From: Deltaproteobacteria bacterium
GTDB lineage: Bacteria; Desulfobacterota; Desulfomonilia; UBA1062
Assembly: GCA_017992605.1 (NCBI GenBank)
Contig: JAGOOG010000014.1
Coordinates: 1 to 46,802, forward strand
Direction: 5' to 3'
Length of the DNA stretch: 46,802 bases
This document shows positions 4,138 through 15,568 of this stretch, in pieces (position 1 is the first letter of the stretch; each line of letters opens with the position of its first letter). A model generated the notes under the pieces. It was not told the DNA's origin, ran no database searches, and saw nothing but the letters and a program-made list of their open reading frames with translations. A program made the position numbers and the translations under genes.

Positions 4138-4662
4138 ATGGACGAGAAACAGAGGATGAGTGCCCTGGAAGTGGCGCTCGAGAACGAGACGAATGAACGG
4201 GAATTCTATCTCAGGCAAGCCGGGCGTACGCGTAACGCCCTGGGAAAGGCCATGTTCCTGCACATGGCGGACGACGAACTGGAGCACTACACCAGGCTGA
4301 AGGAACTCCATGGGAAATGGTCGGAACAGGGCAGGTGGCCCGATGCCGTGGCGCTGGGGGTGAGGGGAACGGCCATCAGAGAGAAGATGCTCGAACTCAT
4401 TGACAAGGCTGCTGGAGCACCCGAGACAGACGACGACGACATGCAGGCACTGCGGACCGCCGCAGCGTTCGAAGCCAAGGGCGTCGAAGCGTACACGGCC
4501 CTCGCCCGGGGAACGTCCGATGCGAAGGAAAAGGCCTTTTTCGAACTTCTCGCAGGGATGGAACGGGAACACTACCTCGCCGTGAAGGATGCCCAGGAGT
4601 ATCTGGAGGATCCGTCGGCATGGTTCACGAAGAAGGAACGGCACGGCCTCGACGGGGGTTGA
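4138..4662 (+). CDS. rubrerythrin/ferritin-like diiron protein
   Basis: This is a 174-residue cytoplasmic four-helix protein of the ferritin-like superfamily. Two diiron half-sites are visible: acidic residues near E15/E17 with DELEH (46-50) in the first half, and FEAKGVEAY with EREH in the second. There is no C-terminal rubredoxin domain with CxxC pairs, so it is not a full rubrerythrin. Relatives reduce peroxide or store iron in anaerobes, and the exact reaction here is not shown by the sequence. The ribosome site AAGGAGG lies 4 bases before the ATG. It has its own promoter and no close downstream partner; parA starts almost 290 bases later behind a separate promoter. Confidence 0.85.
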   Translation: MDEKQRMSALEVALENETNEREFYLRQAGRTRNALGKAMFLHMADDELEHYTRLKELHGKWSEQGRWPDAVALGVRGTAIREKMLELIDKAAGAPETDDDDMQALRTAAAFEAKGVEAYTALARGTSDAKEKAFFELLAGMEREHYLAVKDAQEYLEDPSAWFTKKERHGLDGG

Positions 4663-4950: not shown

Positions 4951-6027
4951 ATGAGGATCGTTGCCATCATCAATCAAAAGGGCGGATGCGGTAAGACCAC
5001 CTCCGCGATAAATCTCGGCGCCTGCCTGGCGCATGCCGGGAAGAGGGTCCTGGTCGTGGATCTCGACCCGCAGGCACATGCCACGCTGGGTTTCGGCATG
5101 AACCCGGGTAGCTGCCACAAGAGCGTCTATGATCTGCTCGTGGCGAAGGGGAGCGGTTCCGTCGATCCCCGTGATGCCGTCATCAGCCTGAACGAACACC
5201 TGGACCTGATCCCGTCGGACGTCATGCTCAGCACCGCGGAACCCCTGCTCATCCGGGAGGACCGCAGGGAGTATTACCTTGCCGACATCCTTGCCCCTCT
5301 GCGGGACGAGTACGATTTCACCATCATTGACTGCCCCCCGAACATAGGGGTTCTCACCTTCAATGCGCTGCACGCCTGCTCGGAGGCCATCATTCCCATG
5401 GAGAGCGGCCTGTTCGCGCTGCACGGTCTGGCCAAGCTGCTCGAGACCGTGGAAGTGGTCAACCTGAAGAGGTCCACGCCCATCGTGGTCCACGCCCTGG
5501 CCACCATGTACGACAGGAGGACGAGGATAGCCCGGGAGTCCCTCGAGGAGCTGCGACGGCATATGCACGGTCATGTCTTCAAGGCCGTGATCAATCTCAA
5601 CGTGAAGCTCAAGGAGGCAGCCGGCTACGGGCAGACCATCCTGGACTATGACCGCAGTTCATCGGGGTGCAAAGATTACCTCGCCCTGGCCAGAGAGATC
5701 ATGGCCACCAGGAAGGTGAAGAAGTCAGGGCCCAGGGATGAAAGACCAATCTTCAAGCCGGTCATCACCAGGGAAGGGGTCCTGTTCACCTACTATTCAC
5801 CGAGGGCGACCCGGGTACATGTGGTCGCAGACTTCAACGACTGGAAAGTGGACGAGCTTCCCATGGAAAACGTCGAGGGGACAGGCATGTGGCAGAGGCT
5901 TGTGCCCTTGAACAAGGGAAGGTACGAGTACAAGTTCTATGTGGACGGTCAATGGGTGAATGATCCCGACAACCCGAACAGGACCCTCAACGAATTCGGC
6001 GAGAACTCCTCCATAGAGATCGAGTGA
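4951..6027 (+). CDS. ParA-type ATPase fused to a C-terminal glycogen-binding (AMPK/CBM48-like) domain
   Basis: Residues 1 to about 255 form a ParA/Soj ATPase: the deviant Walker A NQKGGCGKTT keeps both lysines, Walker A' is VVDLDPQAHAT, and Walker B is FTIIDCPPNIG. There is no N-terminal helix-turn-helix, as in small chromosomal or cargo-positioning ParAs. After a basic linker, residues about 265-358 match the AMPK-beta/isoamylase early-set carbohydrate-binding module. The sugar-stacking positions are visible in DFNDW and GQWVNDPDNPNR, with YEYKFYVDG between them and a terminal NSSIEIE. ParA ATPases bind DNA non-specifically and position plasmids, chromosomes or organelles. The added module suggests an alpha-glucan cargo, which is inference. 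The ribosome site is GGGGAGG. It is the first gene of a three-gene operon and its stop lies next to the start of the next gene. Confidence 0.9.
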   Translation: MRIVAIINQKGGCGKTTSAINLGACLAHAGKRVLVVDLDPQAHATLGFGMNPGSCHKSVYDLLVAKGSGSVDPRDAVISLNEHLDLIPSDVMLSTAEPLLIREDRREYYLADILAPLRDEYDFTIIDCPPNIGVLTFNALHACSEAIIPMESGLFALHGLAKLLETVEVVNLKRSTPIVVHALATMYDRRTRIARESLEELRRHMHGHVFKAVINLNVKLKEAAGYGQTILDYDRSSSGCKDYLALAREIMATRKVKKSGPRDERPIFKPVITREGVLFTYYSPRATRVHVVADFNDWKVDELPMENVEGTGMWQRLVPLNKGRYEYKFYVDGQWVNDPDNPNRTLNEFGENSSIEIE

Positions 6028-6029
6028 TC

Positions 6030-6875
6030 ATGAAGGACAGACCGAAGCTGGGGAGAGGGCTCAGCGATGTATCCCGCTTCTTTCTCTCCGGTTCGCCGCA
6101 GTACGGGCAGCATCACGATGGGAACACTTCCCCGGCCTTCACGGCGGGGACCGTCGGTATCCTCTCTCCCGCTTCGCCCTCGATGCAGGCCTTCTTCACT
6201 GCCAACCTCGTCCTGGAGATGGCGAGACGCCGCCTTGCAGCCCGGATCTGGGACTACGCGACGTCCGCTGATGCCAAGGTGACGCCGCTCATGCGCTCGC
6301 TCCTGGAGGGGCATGGCACGGAGCAGGAAGGACCGGTCGGAATAGTCCTTTACGGCCTGCCCCGGGTCGAGATCCTGGACCGTGCACCCGAGGAGTTCTA
6401 TGCGGGAACAAAGGCCCGGGAGGCAGCCCCTGATGCCGCGGAATCTGAAGGGTACGCCGTCACCCTGGTCAATGCCCGCCCGGACATCGAGTTCATCATG
6501 AAGAGCGAGCCTGTCGACGACTTCATCATCATCACCCGTACGGACGAGATGTCCCTGCTCCAGACCTATGCATTCATCAAGGTCATGGACGTGAGATCTC
6601 GCAGCAGCACCGTGTGGGTGGTTTTCGACGAGGGGGAGGGCAGGGACCTTCAGCGGATCTTCGACGTTCTGGCCGGGTTCGTCACCCGTACACTGGAAAA
6701 GTCCATCGGCTTCCTCGGGGCACTGGTGCACGACGAGTCCCTGGAGCACTCCATACGTGACGAGAAACCTCTCGTCCTTCTGTCGCGCCCGTCCGCTGCC
6801 AGTGAGGCCCTCACGGGCATCTGCTCGCGCTTCATGGACGGACGACAGCAGAAGGCAGGGGAGACGCCTTCATGA
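6030..6875 (+). CDS. MinD/FlhG-like pseudo-ATPase with N-terminal LGRGL peptide
   Basis: This is a 281-residue cytoplasmic protein of unknown function. Residues 6-11 read KLGRGL, like the N-terminal peptide that ParB proteins use to stimulate ParA. Residues about 40-75 resemble the first strand and helix of MinD/ParA (TVGILSPASP, then TANLVLEMARRRLAARIWD), but the GK[T/S] nucleotide loop is absent. The C-terminal half resembles MinD/FlhG (LLQTYAFIKVM; IGFLGALVHDESLEHSIRD; KPLVLLSRPSAASEAL). I read it as an ATPase fold that has lost ATP binding. The start is ATG 6030, two bases after the upstream stop; a GTG at 6024 is also in frame and would overlap that stop. It overlaps the next gene by 4 bases. 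A role as adaptor for the upstream ParA is inference. Confidence 0.82.
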   Translation: MKDRPKLGRGLSDVSRFFLSGSPQYGQHHDGNTSPAFTAGTVGILSPASPSMQAFFTANLVLEMARRRLAARIWDYATSADAKVTPLMRSLLEGHGTEQEGPVGIVLYGLPRVEILDRAPEEFYAGTKAREAAPDAAESEGYAVTLVNARPDIEFIMKSEPVDDFIIITRTDEMSLLQTYAFIKVMDVRSRSSTVWVVFDEGEGRDLQRIFDVLAGFVTRTLEKSIGFLGALVHDESLEHSIRDEKPLVLLSRPSAASEALTGICSRFMDGRQQKAGETPS

Positions 6876-7444
6876 TGCGCGTGCTCACGTCCATCCGGCT
6901 GACCGATACCGCCCAGGCCATAAGGATCTGTGCCAGGTGGCTCAGCGAAGGCCTGGGTCTGAAGGTCCTGGAGTACCGCATCGGCAACGTGTTCACCGGC
7001 AGCATCGACATCCTGGCCACCGGTGCAGGCAGGGTCCACCTCGTGACGGTCAATACCGGGCGCCTCGGCGACGCGCTGCTCGAGGCACTCACGGCATACC
7101 GGTGGTACCTGGAGAACAGGGAGTTCCTGGACAGGGTCTACGGCACCGAAGGGATCAGCCTCACGGGAGAGCCGGTGCTCGTGCTCCTCTCGAACGAGTA
7201 TCCGCCGGAGATCCGGTCTATCTTCCTCCAGGGGCTCAAGGTGGAATTCCGGCTGTTCAAGTACCTTGTCATGGGTTCCGAAGAGGCCCCCGAACTCTAT
7301 GTGGAGGAACTCATCCCTCCAGGTGGGTCCGAAGAAACCCGGGTGCCGGATCTGGACGAGATCAGGAGGGAACTCGGTATCGAGCAGGCGGGACTGAGCG
7401 ACGAAGAGATCGGCGACTTCCTGGCGGCACTGAGGGCCGGATGA
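6872..7444 (+). CDS. hypothetical protein, faintly NucS/PD-(D/E)XK-like
   Basis: This 190-residue soluble protein is not one I recognise with confidence. Residues about 40-85 (FTGSIDILAT, VHLVTVNTGR, ALLEALTAYRWYLEN) have the order seen in NucS/DUF91-type PD-(D/E)XK proteins: an aspartate strand, a second strand that normally carries ExK, then a helix with alanine and tyrosine. Here the ExK position reads VTVN, so a nuclease active site seems lost. Residues 105-135 (EPVLVLLSNEYPPEIRS, then LKVEFRLFKYL) look like the strand-helix-strand that follows. The C-terminal tail is acidic and helical. Translation is coupled to the gene before it (ATGA overlap). It converges with the binding-protein gene 22 bases downstream. 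Confidence 0.75.
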   Translation: MMRVLTSIRLTDTAQAIRICARWLSEGLGLKVLEYRIGNVFTGSIDILATGAGRVHLVTVNTGRLGDALLEALTAYRWYLENREFLDRVYGTEGISLTGEPVLVLLSNEYPPEIRSIFLQGLKVEFRLFKYLVMGSEEAPELYVEELIPPGGSEETRVPDLDEIRRELGIEQAGLSDEEIGDFLAALRAG

Positions 7445-9396: not shown

Positions 9397-11030
9397 TGCG
9401 TCTGACCAGGGGCATCCAGGCCATAAGTTTCACCGCCTTCATGCTGTTTCTGTGGTACGCGGCCTTCCCCCTCGTGCCGTCCATGCCCGTCGACCTCTTC
9501 CTGAGGATGGACCCGCTCGCCCTCGTGCTGGCAGGTACGGCCGGGAGGGCCTTCCTGGTGAAGATGATCCCTGCCGTGCTCGTTTTGATCCTGAGCATCT
9601 TCCTGGGGAGGTTCTTCTGTTCCATGGTCTGTCCCCTGGGGACATCCATCGATGTCTCGGACAGGCTCCTCCAGGGGAAAGATCCGCGACGCAGTCCCGG
9701 GAAATCGATGCCAAGGGAGATGAGGCTGGTCAAGTACTGTGTCCTCGCCTTCATGTTCTCCGGTGCAGTGTTCGGCTTCTCCCTGGCCGCGTACGGGTCA
9801 CCCGTGGCTATTGCTACCCGGTTCTACGGCCTGCTGGTCTACCCGGTCGTCTCTCTGGCCGCCGATGCCGGGTTGTCCGTTCTGAGGCCCCTTGCGGACC
9901 GGACCGGTTTCACCGCACTCGCCTATGCCCATGTCCCTCCCAGGGGCTTCGCCCTCCAGTGGCTCTCCCTGGCCTTCATGGGTGGCATTGCCGCCTGCGC
10001 CCTCCTGATGCCCCGGTTCTGGTGCAGGTACCTGTGTCCGGCCGGGGCGATGTTCGCCCTGGTGTCCTCGAAACCCTTTGCCGTCAGGAGACGGGTGAGC
10101 GAGCAGTGCACCTCCTGCGGCCTGTGCAGGAAGGCGTGCCCCATGGGGGCCATCGGAGAAGACCCTCATGAGACGGACTTTTCCGAGTGCATCGTCTGTA
10201 TGAAGTGTTCCTCAGTCTGCCCGGAGCGTGCGATCCGATTTTCCCCGGGTCCGGAGGCCACCGCCACGAGTGCGTCAGTGTTCTCAGGGCACCGCCGTGC
10301 CCTGATCCTGGCGGCCCTGGCAGGTGTCGGCGCGGCCCTGACGGCCGTCACGGGATTCAGCGCAGCCGGCCGCAATGGCGGTCAGGACAGGGCCATGGAT
10401 CCACCGCTCATAAGACCACCCGGGTCTCTTCCCGAGCACGGGTTTCTCCGGACATGCGTGGGGTGCGGCGAGTGCATGAAGGCATGCCCCACCAACACGC
10501 TCCAGCCTGCAGGCCTTGCTGCAGGCTTCAGTGCCATGTTCAGCCCCGCGATGGTTCCCCGCAGGGGGCCCTGCGACACGACCTGCAATGCCTGCGGGCA
10601 GGTGTGTCCAACCGGGGCCATACGGGGGCTTCACCTCGACGAGAAGAGGCATGCCAAGGTGGGCACGGCGCAAGTCCTCAGGCACAGGTGCATTGCCTGG
10701 GAGTCCGGCAAGGCGTGCCTGGTGTGCGACGAGGTGTGCCCCTACGGGGCCGTGATCCTGCAGCGGGTGGCGGACGTACCGGTGGCCGTACCTGTGGTCG
10801 ACGAGCGAAGATGTAACGGTTGCGGATTCTGCGAACATTACTGCCCGGTGGCCCCCGGCGCGGCCATCGTGGTGGACCCCATGGACGCACTGAGGCTGGA
10901 AGAGGGATCCTACCGCGACAGGAGCAGGGAGCTCGGCTTCACCTTCGAACAGCAAGGGCAGGGGGATACCGGCGGTCCGGTCGCCCCAGGCATTCCCGAT
11001 CGAGGCCTCCCTCCCGGATTTTCCGATTGA
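9396..11030 (+). CDS. membrane-bound polyferredoxin (NapH-like 4Fe-4S protein)
   Basis: This is a 544-residue inner-membrane iron-sulfur protein. The first 220 residues contain several hydrophobic segments and two CxxxCP motifs (FFCSMVCPLG and FWCRYLCPAG) as in NapH/CcoG-type proteins. Ferredoxin-type motifs follow: CTSCGLCRKACP, CIVCMKCSSVCP, a further hydrophobic segment (about residues 300-325), CVGCGECMKACP, CDTTCNACGQVCP, CLVCDEVCP and CNGCGFCEHYCP. This implies four or more 4Fe-4S clusters on either side of the last helix. It likely passes electrons between the quinone pool or cytoplasm and the periplasmic DUF362 partner, which is inference from the one-base overlap of the two genes. 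The family includes the nitrate-reductase and methylamine-utilisation ferredoxins, but no cognate enzyme is encoded here. Confidence 0.88.
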   Translation: MRLTRGIQAISFTAFMLFLWYAAFPLVPSMPVDLFLRMDPLALVLAGTAGRAFLVKMIPAVLVLILSIFLGRFFCSMVCPLGTSIDVSDRLLQGKDPRRSPGKSMPREMRLVKYCVLAFMFSGAVFGFSLAAYGSPVAIATRFYGLLVYPVVSLAADAGLSVLRPLADRTGFTALAYAHVPPRGFALQWLSLAFMGGIAACALLMPRFWCRYLCPAGAMFALVSSKPFAVRRRVSEQCTSCGLCRKACPMGAIGEDPHETDFSECIVCMKCSSVCPERAIRFSPGPEATATSASVFSGHRRALILAALAGVGAALTAVTGFSAAGRNGGQDRAMDPPLIRPPGSLPEHGFLRTCVGCGECMKACPTNTLQPAGLAAGFSAMFSPAMVPRRGPCDTTCNACGQVCPTGAIRGLHLDEKRHAKVGTAQVLRHRCIAWESGKACLVCDEVCPYGAVILQRVADVPVAVPVVDERRCNGCGFCEHYCPVAPGAAIVVDPMDALRLEEGSYRDRSRELGFTFEQQGQGDTGGPVAPGIPDRGLPPGFSD

Positions 11031-11080
11031 ACTGGGCAGGGCATGAGGGCTATATCCTGTATGTGAGAGATCACGGGACA

Positions 11081-12472
11081 ATGCGCATGACGGATTCACG
11101 ATGGCTGCCCTTCTTCTGGTGCATGCTCATGGCACTGCTCGTGTCCGGTTGCCCCCAGAAGGTTGTCGTCGATTACCACGGTTCGCCTGCCCTTGCCCCG
11201 GGGACCAGGCCCGAGATGAACACGGCGGGATTCTGGATCGGAAGACACGCCGAAGCGGACCGCCTTGTCATGACCCTCGACGAGATAGGTGCATTCAATG
11301 CGTACATCAAGGACAAGACCAGGGCCGTCTACGACGTGCCCCGGTTCTCTTCTACCCGCAACGGCACGACCCTGCAGGGCTCGATGAGAAGGATGCTGGC
11401 GTATGTGGCATCGAAGAACTACGTGGACGCCAGGGGCAGGCCGGCGGGAGAGAGCCTGGGGAGCCTGGAGGCCGTCATGGCCATCGATGCCATCCCCGCC
11501 ACGGTGAGGGTGCACTGGGCCTACGTGGTACGCCCGTGCGACCAGCGGATCCTCCCGACAGAGGCCCCACTCTACAAGAGCGTCACGGACACGGCCATCG
11601 ACAGGCTCCAGAACAATGCCCTCGACCTGGCCACCCCGGTGGTCGTGCTCCATGAAAGTGCAGATCAAGCCTGGTTCTACATCATCGCACCCTACAGCGA
11701 GGGCTGGGTGAGGGCCGACTGTGTCGCCCTGTGCCCCCTGGAACAGATGGAGCGCTACGAGGCCTGCAATTCCATCGTGGTCGCCATCTCCGCCAGGGCA
11801 GACCTCTTCGGCGATCCACTGCTCAGGGATCACGTCACCTCGATGCAGATGGGCACGAGACTTCCCCTGCTCCAGGAGATGGGGGAAGACCGTGTACAGG
11901 TTCTCGTACCGACAAGGAGCGAAGGCGGGTGGTGCGTCTTCGACGCGGCTTACATTTCCGTTTCCCAGGTGCACCACGGGTACCTCCCGTACACGCCGCG
12001 CAATGCCATCACGCAGGCCTTCAGGCTCCTGAACACCCCATACGGATGGGGAGGCATGTACGGCGAGCAGGACTGTTCCAGGTTCATCCAGGAGATCTTT
12101 GCCTGCTTCGGCATCCTCATGCCCAGGAACTCCTCGCAGCAGGGCAAGGTGGGCTCGCCCGTCGCATCCTTCGGCAGCACCCTCGACGAAGACCAGCGCA
12201 GGAAAGCCCTCGTATCCTCGGCACGGGGGGGAGTCACCACCCTGCAGTTCCCCGGGCACATCATGCTGTACCTTGGCAATATGGGCGGGGAGCCGTACGC
12301 CATTCATGACCTCTACGCCTATACCGAACCCATGAGCGACGACGAGCGGCTGATCTCAATCAACAGAGTGGCGGTGACGAGCCTTGCTCTCGGCGGGGGT
12401 ACGAAAAAGGGATCGCTCCTCATGCGCCTCGTGAACGTCAGGGAGCTCTCGCCCGAACCCGCGGAGAAATGA
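11081..12472 (+). CDS. SH3-domain NlpC/P60 peptidoglycan hydrolase, lipoprotein
   Basis: This 463-residue protein likely cleaves the D-glutamyl-diaminopimelate bond in peptidoglycan stems. A lipoprotein signal ends at LLVSG-C, about residue 23. The N-terminal NlpC/P60-associated region covers about 50-160 (NTAGFWIGRH, YDVPRFSSTRNG). SH3b-type domains with VVLHESADQAWFYI and GWVRADCVAL follow. The NlpC/P60 domain spans about 310-455, with PYGWGGMYGEQDCSRF holding the catalytic cysteine (DCS) and GHIMLYLG plus the HDLYAY region holding the histidine. ATG 11081 is used; ATG 11087 is also possible and neither has a strong ribosome site. It follows the polyferredoxin gene by 50 bases and may be read from the same transcript. 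Confidence 0.88.
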   Translation: MRMTDSRWLPFFWCMLMALLVSGCPQKVVVDYHGSPALAPGTRPEMNTAGFWIGRHAEADRLVMTLDEIGAFNAYIKDKTRAVYDVPRFSSTRNGTTLQGSMRRMLAYVASKNYVDARGRPAGESLGSLEAVMAIDAIPATVRVHWAYVVRPCDQRILPTEAPLYKSVTDTAIDRLQNNALDLATPVVVLHESADQAWFYIIAPYSEGWVRADCVALCPLEQMERYEACNSIVVAISARADLFGDPLLRDHVTSMQMGTRLPLLQEMGEDRVQVLVPTRSEGGWCVFDAAYISVSQVHHGYLPYTPRNAITQAFRLLNTPYGWGGMYGEQDCSRFIQEIFACFGILMPRNSSQQGKVGSPVASFGSTLDEDQRRKALVSSARGGVTTLQFPGHIMLYLGNMGGEPYAIHDLYAYTEPMSDDERLISINRVAVTSLALGGGTKKGSLLMRLVNVRELSPEPAEK

Positions 12473-12494
12473 CGTATCATTCCTGCGCCAAGCA

Positions 12495-12503
12495 TGCTAT
12501 AAT
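12495..12503 (+). promoter_or_regulatory. extended -10 promoter upstream of the RND genes
   Basis: TGCTATAAT is a perfect extended -10 element located 108 bases before the first RND gene. No -35 match is present at 17 bases upstream, as is common for extended -10 promoters. Confidence 0.55.
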
Positions 12504-12610
12504 TACATGTTGTTAGCCCGTCGCATGAGCCGGTCACGAAGCGGTTCCTCCCGGAGCGCATCAGGCCGTCGTGCCGTGGGCCATGAAATGTCGAGGGGGG
12601 ATCTGTTCCC

Positions 12611-15568
12611 ATGGAAAGGCACCTGAGAAGGTTCAGCGACTTCATCATCAACCACAAGGTCCATGTCCTGGTGCTCATGCTCGCGATCACCGTCTTCTTC
12701 ATCTACATGGGCACCAAGCTCACGGTGAACAACGACCACGACACCTGGCTTCCCCAGCACAACGAGGTGGCCAGACTCCTGCGGCAGGCGGACAGGGACT
12801 TTTCCTCGAACGTCATGCTCTTTGCCGTCATCGAGTTCAAGGATGGCGTGTTCACGCCAGAATCGCTGGCCCTCATGGACCGCATCACCAGGGAGCTCGA
12901 AGGCATCGACGAGCTCTTCAACGTGACGAGCATCACGAACATCATCGACATAAAGAAAACACAGGACGGCATAGAGGTGGGCGACCTCATCCCCGAAGCC
13001 CCTGCATCACCTGCAGATATTGATAAGCTCAGGGACTATGTCCTGTCCAAGGAGACCTACGTCGACACCATCGTCTCCTCGGACGAGAAGTACACGGCCA
13101 TCATGACCAACATCGAGAGCACCGAGGACGAGGTGCTCGTGGCGGAGAGGATCTTCAAGATCGTGGACCGGCTGGCCGAAGGCCACACGCGCTACTACGG
13201 CGGCGACCCGTCCGTGAACTACTACCTGAACTACTACATGGTGGAGGATCTCAAGACCCTCCTTCCCATGGGCGTCGTCGTGGTTATGCTTGTCATCTTC
13301 TTCGGCATGCGGCGGATTTCAGGGGTGGTCCTGCCCATGTCGATCGTTTTTTTCGCCATTCTGTGGACCTTCGGACTCATGGCCATCTTCCGCTACCCGG
13401 TCAACATACTGAGCCCCGCGGTGATCGTTCTGCTCATCGCACTGGGCACGGACTATGCGGTGCACTACTACAACCACCATCTCAAGCGCGGTGATCCGAC
13501 GACCTCCACCACGGAGATCTCGATACCCGTCACCATGAGCGCGCTGACCACCATAGTGAGCCTGCTCACCTTCGCCACTACCCGCATCGAGGTGTTCAAG
13601 AACTTCGGCATCGAACTCGCCTTCGGCCTTGCCGTGGCATGGATCCTGTCCATAGTGCTCATGGCCGTGTTCGTCTCTCTCTTCAAGGTCAAGCCCTCCC
13701 GTCACCTCGAACAGGACGATGTCCAGACCCGCTTCACCCGCCTGACCGACACCTTCGGAGCGTGGGTGCATGACCATGCCAAGGTCATGCTGGTCATGGT
13801 CGGCATCTTCACCGTCGGGATGGCCTTCGGCGTACCGGCCATAAAGACCAACGTCGATTTCATCGGCCAGCTCCCCGAGGACAGCCCGCCGCGGGAAGGC
13901 TGCAACATCCTCCAGGATCACTTCAGCGGCATGTATCCCTTCAACCTGTATGTCCGTAGCGACGTGGAGAACCCGGCAATCATGAACCGCATGCAGTATC
14001 TGGAGAACTGCATGCGCTCGGAGGAAAGCGCCTCGAGCTTCACCTCCATCAATGCGCTCATAGCCCAGGAGAACTGGCTCCTGAACGGGGTGTATGCCAT
14101 CCCCGAAACGCCAGGTGGCGTTGCGAATCTCTGGTTCATGCTGGAAGGGCACGACATCCTCAAGACCTTTGTCACGGACGACCGGAAAAAAGGCCTGGTC
14201 AACTCCATCGTGAACAAGTCCGACACCGAGGAGATGCGCTTTCTCGCCGACCGGTTTGACACGATCATGGCCGAGAGGGTCTCGGGCGATGTCCTGACCA
14301 TCGATCCCGCCGTGCTGACCGATGAGGGGCGGGGCGCCCTGGATGTGATGCGCGTGAGAGACGCCGCCATGCAGCTGGCGTGGCTTGCCGGCTACTACGA
14401 CAGGACAGGGGCCTTCAGCGAGAGAGATTTTGTGGCGCGGTTGACAGCGGGCGTCGCGGCCTTGCCGGGATCCGTGGACATGGCCCCGGTGTGGGGTGAG
14501 CTGAGAGGATACCTTGAGAAGGAGACCGTGGAGGAGCTGCCTGAGCCGCTTGTAGCGGGGATCATGGGAAAACTCCAGGAGCGATGGGACAGCAGAGGCG
14601 GACAGGAGGCATCCCGGGAGCTCATCGACATGATCGGTGCGAGCGGCGTCATGGCCGAAGAGGATGCCCGAAGCACCGTGGCGGGACTCCTGAACAGGGC
14701 CGAGTCCTCGTTCCGACTCCAGAAGGCCGCATCGCTGGCTCTCGCGCTTGGCGATCTCGTAACCCCCACACTGTCCGCCAACGAGAACTTCACCAAACGG
14801 GCCGGGGGAGTACTCTGGGAGCTCTTCTCCCCGAGGCCTGTGTTCTTCGGCAGGCAGGTACAGGGGATCCCCGGCATCGAGGGTGCTGTAATCGGCCGTT
14901 CGGAGGTCCTCATTGACCAGGCCGGGATGCCGCCGACGGTGAGGCTCGTGCACGGCCTGCTCATCAACAGCCAGATCCAGAGTCTGTTCCTGGCCATCAG
15001 CGCGGTCCTCATTATCGTTGCCCTGACCTACCGGTCTCTGCGTCGGGGCATCACCTCCATGATGACCGTGTTCGTGCCACTCGTCTGCATACTGGGGTTC
15101 ATGGGGCTCATCCATATCCCTCTGGACATCGGCACCGTGCTGTGCGGGTCGCTGATCGTGGGCCTCGGCATCGACGGGTCCGTCCACTTTCTCTACTACT
15201 ATAACCGGCTCCACCTCGGAGGCATACCCAAGAAGCGCGCCCTGCAGATGACCATGGGACACGTGGGCAGGGCTGTCTGCACCGCGAACGGCACCACCTT
15301 CTGCGGGTTCTTGGTGTGTCTTCAGTCGGACGTGACCGCGGTGAAGAACTTTGCCACGCTCAACTCCATAGCCATCCTCCTGGTCACCCTCTCTGTCATG
15401 ACCCTGCTGCCGGCCCTGGTGACCGTGCTCCACCTTGACAAGGCCGATGACCTGGAGGATGCTAAACCTCTCAGCACCTGGGCGCGGTTCACCAGGAGGA
15501 GGGCCTCGGCGGAGCCTGTGTCCACGCCTTCCGAGGAGAAGAAGAAGCGGGCCGCAGGAGGCATGTAG
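12611..15568 (+). CDS. RND/MMPL-superfamily exporter, copy 1
   Basis: This is a 985-residue inner-membrane exporter of the RND superfamily (MMPL/HpnN-like branch), predicted to have 12 helices and two large periplasmic domains. The first helix is at residues 15-33. The TM4-type motif IALGTDYAVHYYNH carries the Asp-Tyr pair expected for proton relay, and the second half has GLGIDGSVHFLYYY. Members of this branch move lipids or hydrophobic compounds and often work without a classical adaptor; none is encoded here. The substrate is unknown. The start aligns exactly with the paralogue downstream (MERHLRRF against MDRFLRAF). The two genes are a tandem duplication and follow an extended -10 promoter. 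Confidence 0.9.
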   Translation: MERHLRRFSDFIINHKVHVLVLMLAITVFFIYMGTKLTVNNDHDTWLPQHNEVARLLRQADRDFSSNVMLFAVIEFKDGVFTPESLALMDRITRELEGIDELFNVTSITNIIDIKKTQDGIEVGDLIPEAPASPADIDKLRDYVLSKETYVDTIVSSDEKYTAIMTNIESTEDEVLVAERIFKIVDRLAEGHTRYYGGDPSVNYYLNYYMVEDLKTLLPMGVVVVMLVIFFGMRRISGVVLPMSIVFFAILWTFGLMAIFRYPVNILSPAVIVLLIALGTDYAVHYYNHHLKRGDPTTSTTEISIPVTMSALTTIVSLLTFATTRIEVFKNFGIELAFGLAVAWILSIVLMAVFVSLFKVKPSRHLEQDDVQTRFTRLTDTFGAWVHDHAKVMLVMVGIFTVGMAFGVPAIKTNVDFIGQLPEDSPPREGCNILQDHFSGMYPFNLYVRSDVENPAIMNRMQYLENCMRSEESASSFTSINALIAQENWLLNGVYAIPETPGGVANLWFMLEGHDILKTFVTDDRKKGLVNSIVNKSDTEEMRFLADRFDTIMAERVSGDVLTIDPAVLTDEGRGALDVMRVRDAAMQLAWLAGYYDRTGAFSERDFVARLTAGVAALPGSVDMAPVWGELRGYLEKETVEELPEPLVAGIMGKLQERWDSRGGQEASRELIDMIGASGVMAEEDARSTVAGLLNRAESSFRLQKAASLALALGDLVTPTLSANENFTKRAGGVLWELFSPRPVFFGRQVQGIPGIEGAVIGRSEVLIDQAGMPPTVRLVHGLLINSQIQSLFLAISAVLIIVALTYRSLRRGITSMMTVFVPLVCILGFMGLIHIPLDIGTVLCGSLIVGLGIDGSVHFLYYYNRLHLGGIPKKRALQMTMGHVGRAVCTANGTTFCGFLVCLQSDVTAVKNFATLNSIAILLVTLSVMTLLPALVTVLHLDKADDLEDAKPLSTWARFTRRRASAEPVSTPSEEKKKRAAGGM

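Follow-up and report, generated by a model that had tools for sequence, protein, structure and literature searches.

The window, which is the whole stretch of 46,802 nucleotides that was analysed, corresponds to contig C22 of a 2.7 Mb genome that is 98% complete, and holds three genes, all on the + strand, whose neighbours overlap or abut (Table 1). The stop codon of gene 1 occupies 6025-6027, gene 2 starts at GTG 6024 or at ATG 6030, and the ATG of gene 3 at 6872 overlaps the stop of gene 2. The initial annotation had described two tightly linked genes downstream of gene 1, and these coordinates bear it out. Since the genes overlap, co-transcription is likely. That they lie behind a single promoter, as was also claimed, is unsupported: a promoter/terminator scan gave nothing, not even a sigma-70-like site.

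Table 1. Features of the three-gene operon and its upstream neighbour, in window positions.
Feature	Position	Strand	Basis or remark
Rubrerythrin/ferritin-like gene, conserved upstream neighbour	4138..4662	+	Pfam Rubrerythrin 5.3e-10; upstream in 10/16 loci
Gene 1, ParA-CBM48 fusion, 358 aa	4951..6027	+	Pfam AAA_31, CBM_48 and AMPK1_CBM; closest solved chain 8ray
Soj-like ParA ATPase domain of gene 1	4951..5706	+	NQKGGCGKTT, DLDPQ and IIDCPP motifs
CBM48/AMPK-beta type glucan-binding module of gene 1 (binding inferred)	5773..6024	+	Matches AMPK beta CBM structures
Gene 2, partner protein	6030..6875	+	281 aa from ATG 6030, 283 aa from GTG 6024; without Pfam family; conserved beside gene 1
ParB-like N-terminal peptide MKDRPKLGRGLSDVSRFFLS of gene 2	6030..6089	+	Conserved in 16 sequences; similar to the start of the genome's own ParB
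FlhG/MinD-fold domain without P-loop (pseudo-ATPase) of gene 2	6141..6854	+	AlphaFold2 pLDDT 78
Gene 3, PD-(D/E)XK-fold protein, 190 aa, predicted inactive	6872..7444	+	AlphaFold2 model and structural matches
Conserved C-terminal helices of gene 3 (LRxELGIExAGLxDEEIxDF)	7352..7438	+	Invariant R165, L168, I170, D177, I180, F183

Had the three genes not been found together in relatives, the initial annotation would have been undermined, but they are conserved as a unit. Gene 2 was detected at E<=1e-20 in 15 of the 23 other genomes of the family, a CBM-bearing frame directly adjoins it in all 15, and gene 3 is present in every family genome with gene 2, including L060, where it was gene-called only on recheck. 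All 16 operon-bearing genomes of the family have genes 2 and 3 together with gene 1, which is intact in 15 of them. The relatives that carry names are uncultured Deltaproteobacteria/Thermodesulfobacteriota, one of them labelled Syntrophaceae. In one genome, G023 (L063, G023:C136), gene 1 has lost its ParA half and a CBM remnant with an internal stop codon is left at 10219-10410, with genes 2 and 3 intact beside it; either the ATPase was lost naturally or the assembly is at fault. The rubrerythrin/ferritin-like gene upstream is probably outside the system. An SH3/NlpC-like protein and an RND/MMPL-type exporter are encoded downstream (window 10820-15568) and recur as conserved neighbours across many loci of the family; neither these nor the rubrerythrin has an evident glucan role.

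Residues 1-252 of gene 1 match Soj/ParA (Pfam AAA_31, 4.6e-52), and the closest solved chain to this domain is the ParA 8ray (E 1.7e-54). The deviant Walker A with its signature lysine, the A' aspartate and the Walker B aspartate are invariant in 16 family sequences, and the ATPase residues are likewise invariant in 46/46 fusions from three phyla. R190 and K221, two basic residues whose counterparts in 8ray are arginines, are also kept in the 46 fusions. A further match to Pfam CBP_BcsQ (43.4 bits) reflects only the shared ATPase fold. A separate canonical ParAB is encoded in the same genome, adjoining dnaN, which argues that the ParA-CBM48 system has another cargo.

The last 80 residues of gene 1 score 46.2 bits against CBM_48 (cut-off 22.4) and 40.8 bits against AMPK1_CBM (cut-off 26.8), and when a profile of the module was compared with known structures, the AMPK beta CBM came first and GlgB branching enzymes next. 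The proposal of an intact ParA motif set followed by an AMPK/CBM48-like domain was thereby confirmed, both domains being above their Pfam cut-offs; the C-terminal region, on whose identity that proposal depended, is a CBM48/AMPK domain by these cut-offs and by the AMPK beta structure matches, and the sequences DFNDW and GQWVNDPDNP that had been pointed out are both present. In AMPK beta, the residues W100, K126, W133 and N150 are reported to be critical for glycogen binding (PMC4032982). Their equivalents in gene 1, W298, K328, W335 and N352, are all invariant in the family alignment, which was not selected on W298, F295 or N296. Outside the family of the window, the K126 equivalent is replaced by R in the other phyla and the N150 equivalent by D in 13/23 Omnitrophota, and the equivalents of W133, K126 (as K or R) and N150 (as N or D) persist in the 46 fusions. 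As W298, F295 and N296 were used to select this set of 46, the remaining CBM residues alone count as independent evidence in it. From the retention of these sugar-contact residues it is inferred, without binding data, that the CBM48 of gene 1 may grip glucan. The genome also encodes further small CBM48/AMPK1_CBM proteins (L084, G000:C7, 6725-7297, and G000:C61:1539-1802), one of them with an anti-sigma-like N-terminus (MRDELISLFIDDELGLDEKTDF); relatives of such small proteins occur in the genus.

Gene 2 has no match in Pfam or NCBIfam, ParB and DNA-binding families included. It begins with a ParB-like peptide, RPKLGRGLSDVSRFFLS, predicted to bind ParA, in which LGRGL/I is found in most rows and RG in 16/16. 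The canonical ParB of the same genome (N-terminus MKARPRLGKGIDALIP, comparison peptide KARPRLGKGIDALIP) carries LGKGI. The initial annotation had guessed that the partner would bear a short, basic peptide at its N-terminus, and gene 2 has one that is comparable to that of canonical ParB. The model of the remainder superimposes on FlhG 4rz3 with Z 21.3 and an rmsd of 2.7 over 216 aligned residues; where related FlhG-like proteins have the P-loop KGGVGK, unrelated residues stand in 16/16 gene 2 sequences. Because a ParB-like N-terminus, a MinD/FlhG fold and the loss of the P-loop are combined in one protein, gene 2 reads as a putative ParA-activating peptide on a dead ATPase, the activation being inferred from sequence only. 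It does not have the CTPase/HTH domains of a ParB, its fold being that of MinD/FlhG. A viral origin was considered and rejected, gene 2 having no relative among viral contigs.

Gene 3 is also without a family match in Pfam or NCBIfam. Its AlphaFold2 model (pLDDT 83) best matches XisH (2inb, Z 9.7), EndoMS (2vld, Z 9.6) and FokI (2fok, Z 9.2), and although these Z scores are moderate, the top rows agree on a PD-(D/E)XK fold. The aspartate of the GxxTGxID motif, D46, is invariant, and the [DE]xK expected on the strand that follows is absent in 15/15 gene 3 rows, where this strand reads LVTVNTG, LVTIGTG or similar. The best reading of gene 3 is that of a predicted nuclease-fold protein in which catalysis has been lost.

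The fusion is not confined to the family of the window. A scan with the CBM part through genomes of 84,980 species recovered ParA-CBM48 fusions also in Omnitrophota and Phycisphaerae. In Omnitrophota, represented by 193 sampled genomes, 107 of the 150 matches listed lie in fusion-sized frames of 340-470 residues, and the best 30 loci, when fetched, were all ParA-CBM48 fusions, as were 12 Planctomycetota loci. Within the phylum of the window (395 genomes) the strong fusion-sized matches fell in two families, that of the window and a second one (G042, G511), leaving aside a few weaker, unconfirmed matches in frames of comparable size. In a ParA tree that included canonical ParAs of the same genomes, 42/42 fusions fall in one clade (support 0.96), which contains only two CBM-less ParAs. 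These two, L312 and L313, come from G511 and G042, and represent either loss of the module or CBM-free ancestors. As a single clade of the ParA tree unites fusions of several phyla, the fusion is old and not a local accident.

Candidate partners accompany the fusion outside the family as well. In Omnitrophota the fusion is preceded by a gene for a protein of about 190 residues with the N-terminus MDKKDIYEHLAKIYLDASSKKKK, a conserved helix whose position 1 is Y, followed by an apparent single membrane segment; it is found in 23/23 loci, mostly directly adjacent. The conserved gene order there (L104 3324-9149 and matching loci) is porin-like, GH57, single-membrane-segment protein, ParA-CBM48, DUF4870-like and a basic lysine-rich protein. 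For Planctomycetota and G042/G511 the candidate is the next gene downstream, which begins with helices such as KKLGRGIEDFIGAFVS, EGRGISSIAHHFLS, FEQLAALYLTG and KQLEEIAHLYFS. A position matrix built solely from the peptides of the window's family was used to rank the 496 proteins of those loci, and in the 16-mer model adjacent partners were placed 1st (L264), 2nd (L259), 4th (L073) and 6th (L263). The rank test gives p 1.6e-8, which is not independent evidence given that the sequences are related. The partner at L259 also matches the gene 2 profile (6.6e-10). The Omnitrophota helix scores modestly in the matrix test, and with this weaker match its kinship to the other partner peptides is a suggestion only.

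The genetic link of the fusion to alpha-glucan is well supported, and is read from relatives, since no glucan gene lies beside the operon in the window itself. In 19/23 Omnitrophota loci a GH57 gene stands about two positions upstream of the fusion, identified by Pfam (2.4e-60) and by closely related GH57 structures. In G009, a member of the window's family, a run of glycogen genes lies directly upstream of the operon and on the same strand (L070 11063-19807, minus strand). It comprises genes for a fusion of glycogen synthase and phosphorylase, 1441 residues long (Glycogen_syn 1.4e-107, DUF3417, Phosphorylase), for a candidate glucan synthase of GT5/GT4-like type and for a debranching enzyme (GDE_C 3.6e-119). 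Two separate lineages therefore place the fusion among alpha-glucan genes. GT5 is encoded elsewhere in the genome of the window, and GT5-family genes occur in all operon-bearing genomes of the family, but this co-occurrence was set aside as carrying little weight because 22/24 family genomes have GT5 anyway.

The best explanation, which we judge somewhat more likely than not, is that the operon encodes a ParA-type system which tethers, positions or partitions bodies of glycogen or another alpha-glucan. It is built on observed domains, motifs, conservation, pseudo-enzyme states and linkage to alpha-glucan enzymes, while glucan binding, stimulation of the ATPase and movement are inferred. In known ParA systems ATP-bound dimers associate with the nucleoid, a cargo-bound partner stimulates hydrolysis, and the cargo is moved or spread by the gradient that arises (PMC10241942, PMC9178275). 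Judging from its kept motifs and basic positions, gene 1 would dimerise on ATP and bind the nucleoid non-specifically, and through the sugar-contact residues of its CBM48 it would hold alpha-glucan. By analogy with ParB, the peptide of gene 2 would contact the ParA dimer and trigger ATP hydrolysis and release, and the MinD-like remainder of gene 2, dead as an ATPase, may form a pair with the ParA domain or provide further contacts. The dead PD-(D/E)XK fold of gene 3 is probably a scaffold or a DNA- or protein-binding adaptor of the same complex. Repeated binding and release could then leave the glucan body tethered to the nucleoid, spread, or shared between daughters. The simplest model is that gene 1 would bridge glucan body and nucleoid and gene 2 would release it; within the same reading, the glucan surface itself may be the track. 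The order of contacts is uncertain because the CBM, unlike in known ParA systems, sits on the ATPase and not on a cargo adaptor.

One point that counts against positioning of glucan is that CBM48 domains can also act in protein interaction or sensing. The main rival is sensing of the kind seen in AMPK, though on balance we find it unlikely: the CBM48 would report the state of the store and gate the ParA switch, and some other target, such as division, the envelope or a regulator, would be positioned or regulated through genes 2 and 3. The module of gene 1 has AMPK1_CBM among its nearest domain types, AMPK uses the CBM of its beta subunit for sensing (PMC2642990), linkage to glucan genes fits a sensor equally well, and the putative Omnitrophota partner is seemingly membrane-anchored. 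However, no other target is genetically linked to the fusion in a conserved manner, and ParA motifs together with a ParB-like peptide suit a dynamic positioning cycle.

CBM48/E-set domains are structural modules in many enzymes, and enzyme genes adjoin the fusion, so that the module could be a mere E-set protein-interaction domain which brings ParA to gene 3 or a glycogen enzyme but does not itself bind glucan. Protein binding alone would not demand the equivalents of W133, K126 and N150 that are kept in the 46 fusions, and this makes such a role rather improbable. An ordinary DNA partition system, or the ParA system of a mobile element, that has captured a stray CBM would agree with the Soj-like ParA domain, the ParB-like peptide of gene 2 and the nuclease-like fold of gene 3, but is very hard to reconcile with a gene 2 that matches no ParB or DNA-binding family, with the canonical ParAB that the genome already has, with the wide retention of the fusion across Omnitrophota, and with the lack of any viral contig matching gene 2.

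Tethering, positioning or partitioning of an alpha-glucan body remains our preferred reading for the operon. Extended to polysaccharide as a ParA cargo or track in general, it would state that bacteria of at least three phyla position and share glycogen or alpha-glucan bodies by means of a directly glucan-binding ATPase, with the cycle driven by a pseudo-ATPase partner or, in Omnitrophota, by a membrane-anchored one. This broader proposal is tentative, and we would put its chances at slightly under even.

Among described systems, chromosomal ParABS (Soj/Spo0J) has in common with the operon the motifs of the ParA ATPase and a partner whose N-terminal peptide reads LG(R/K)G(L/I). The operon differs by the extra CBM48 on its ATPase, by its third gene, by the linkage to glucan enzymes, and by a partner whose body is a dead MinD/FlhG fold and not a CTPase/HTH ParB. 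In the initiation of plant starch granules by PTST2/MFP1, a CBM48 protein is tied to where and how alpha-glucan granules form, but this system has no ATPase and works in plastids. BcsQ, to our knowledge, has no known carbohydrate-binding module, and its glucan is an extracellular beta-glucan. It is like gene 1 in being a ParA-family ATPase linked to a polysaccharide, through cellulose secretion (PMC9178275). McdAB, which positions carboxysomes (PMC6328274, PMC10241942), is similar in that a ParA-type ATPase with its own partner serves a non-DNA body, whereas in the operon the ATPase itself carries the presumed contact with the cargo, this cargo would be a polysaccharide, and the partner is folded and MinD-like. 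The glycogen-binding domain of AMPK beta (PMC2642990, PMC4032982) is the same module with equivalents of W100, K126, W133 and N150, carried there by a kinase complex and here by a ParA ATPase. A search of the open-licence literature for a system of this make-up (ParA with CBM48, glycogen granules, LGRGL peptides) found none, in agreement with the initial annotation, which knew of none either.

ParA/MinD ATPases place DNA, carboxysomes, flagella and chemoreceptors. The operon is probably of this positioning kind and new in the class of its probable cargo, glucan; the new feature is that the predicted glucan-binding module sits on the ATPase itself, its binding being inferred. In one study of E. 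coli, glycogen gathered with a preference for the old pole and skewed division (PMC12706056). The predictions for peptide and CBM are clear enough to be testable with purified proteins and laboratory strains, and the wide presence of the fusion in Omnitrophota is relevant as well, this phylum being largely uncultured and little understood. If the ParA does bind glucan, some bacteria would actively manage both the location and the inheritance of their carbon store.
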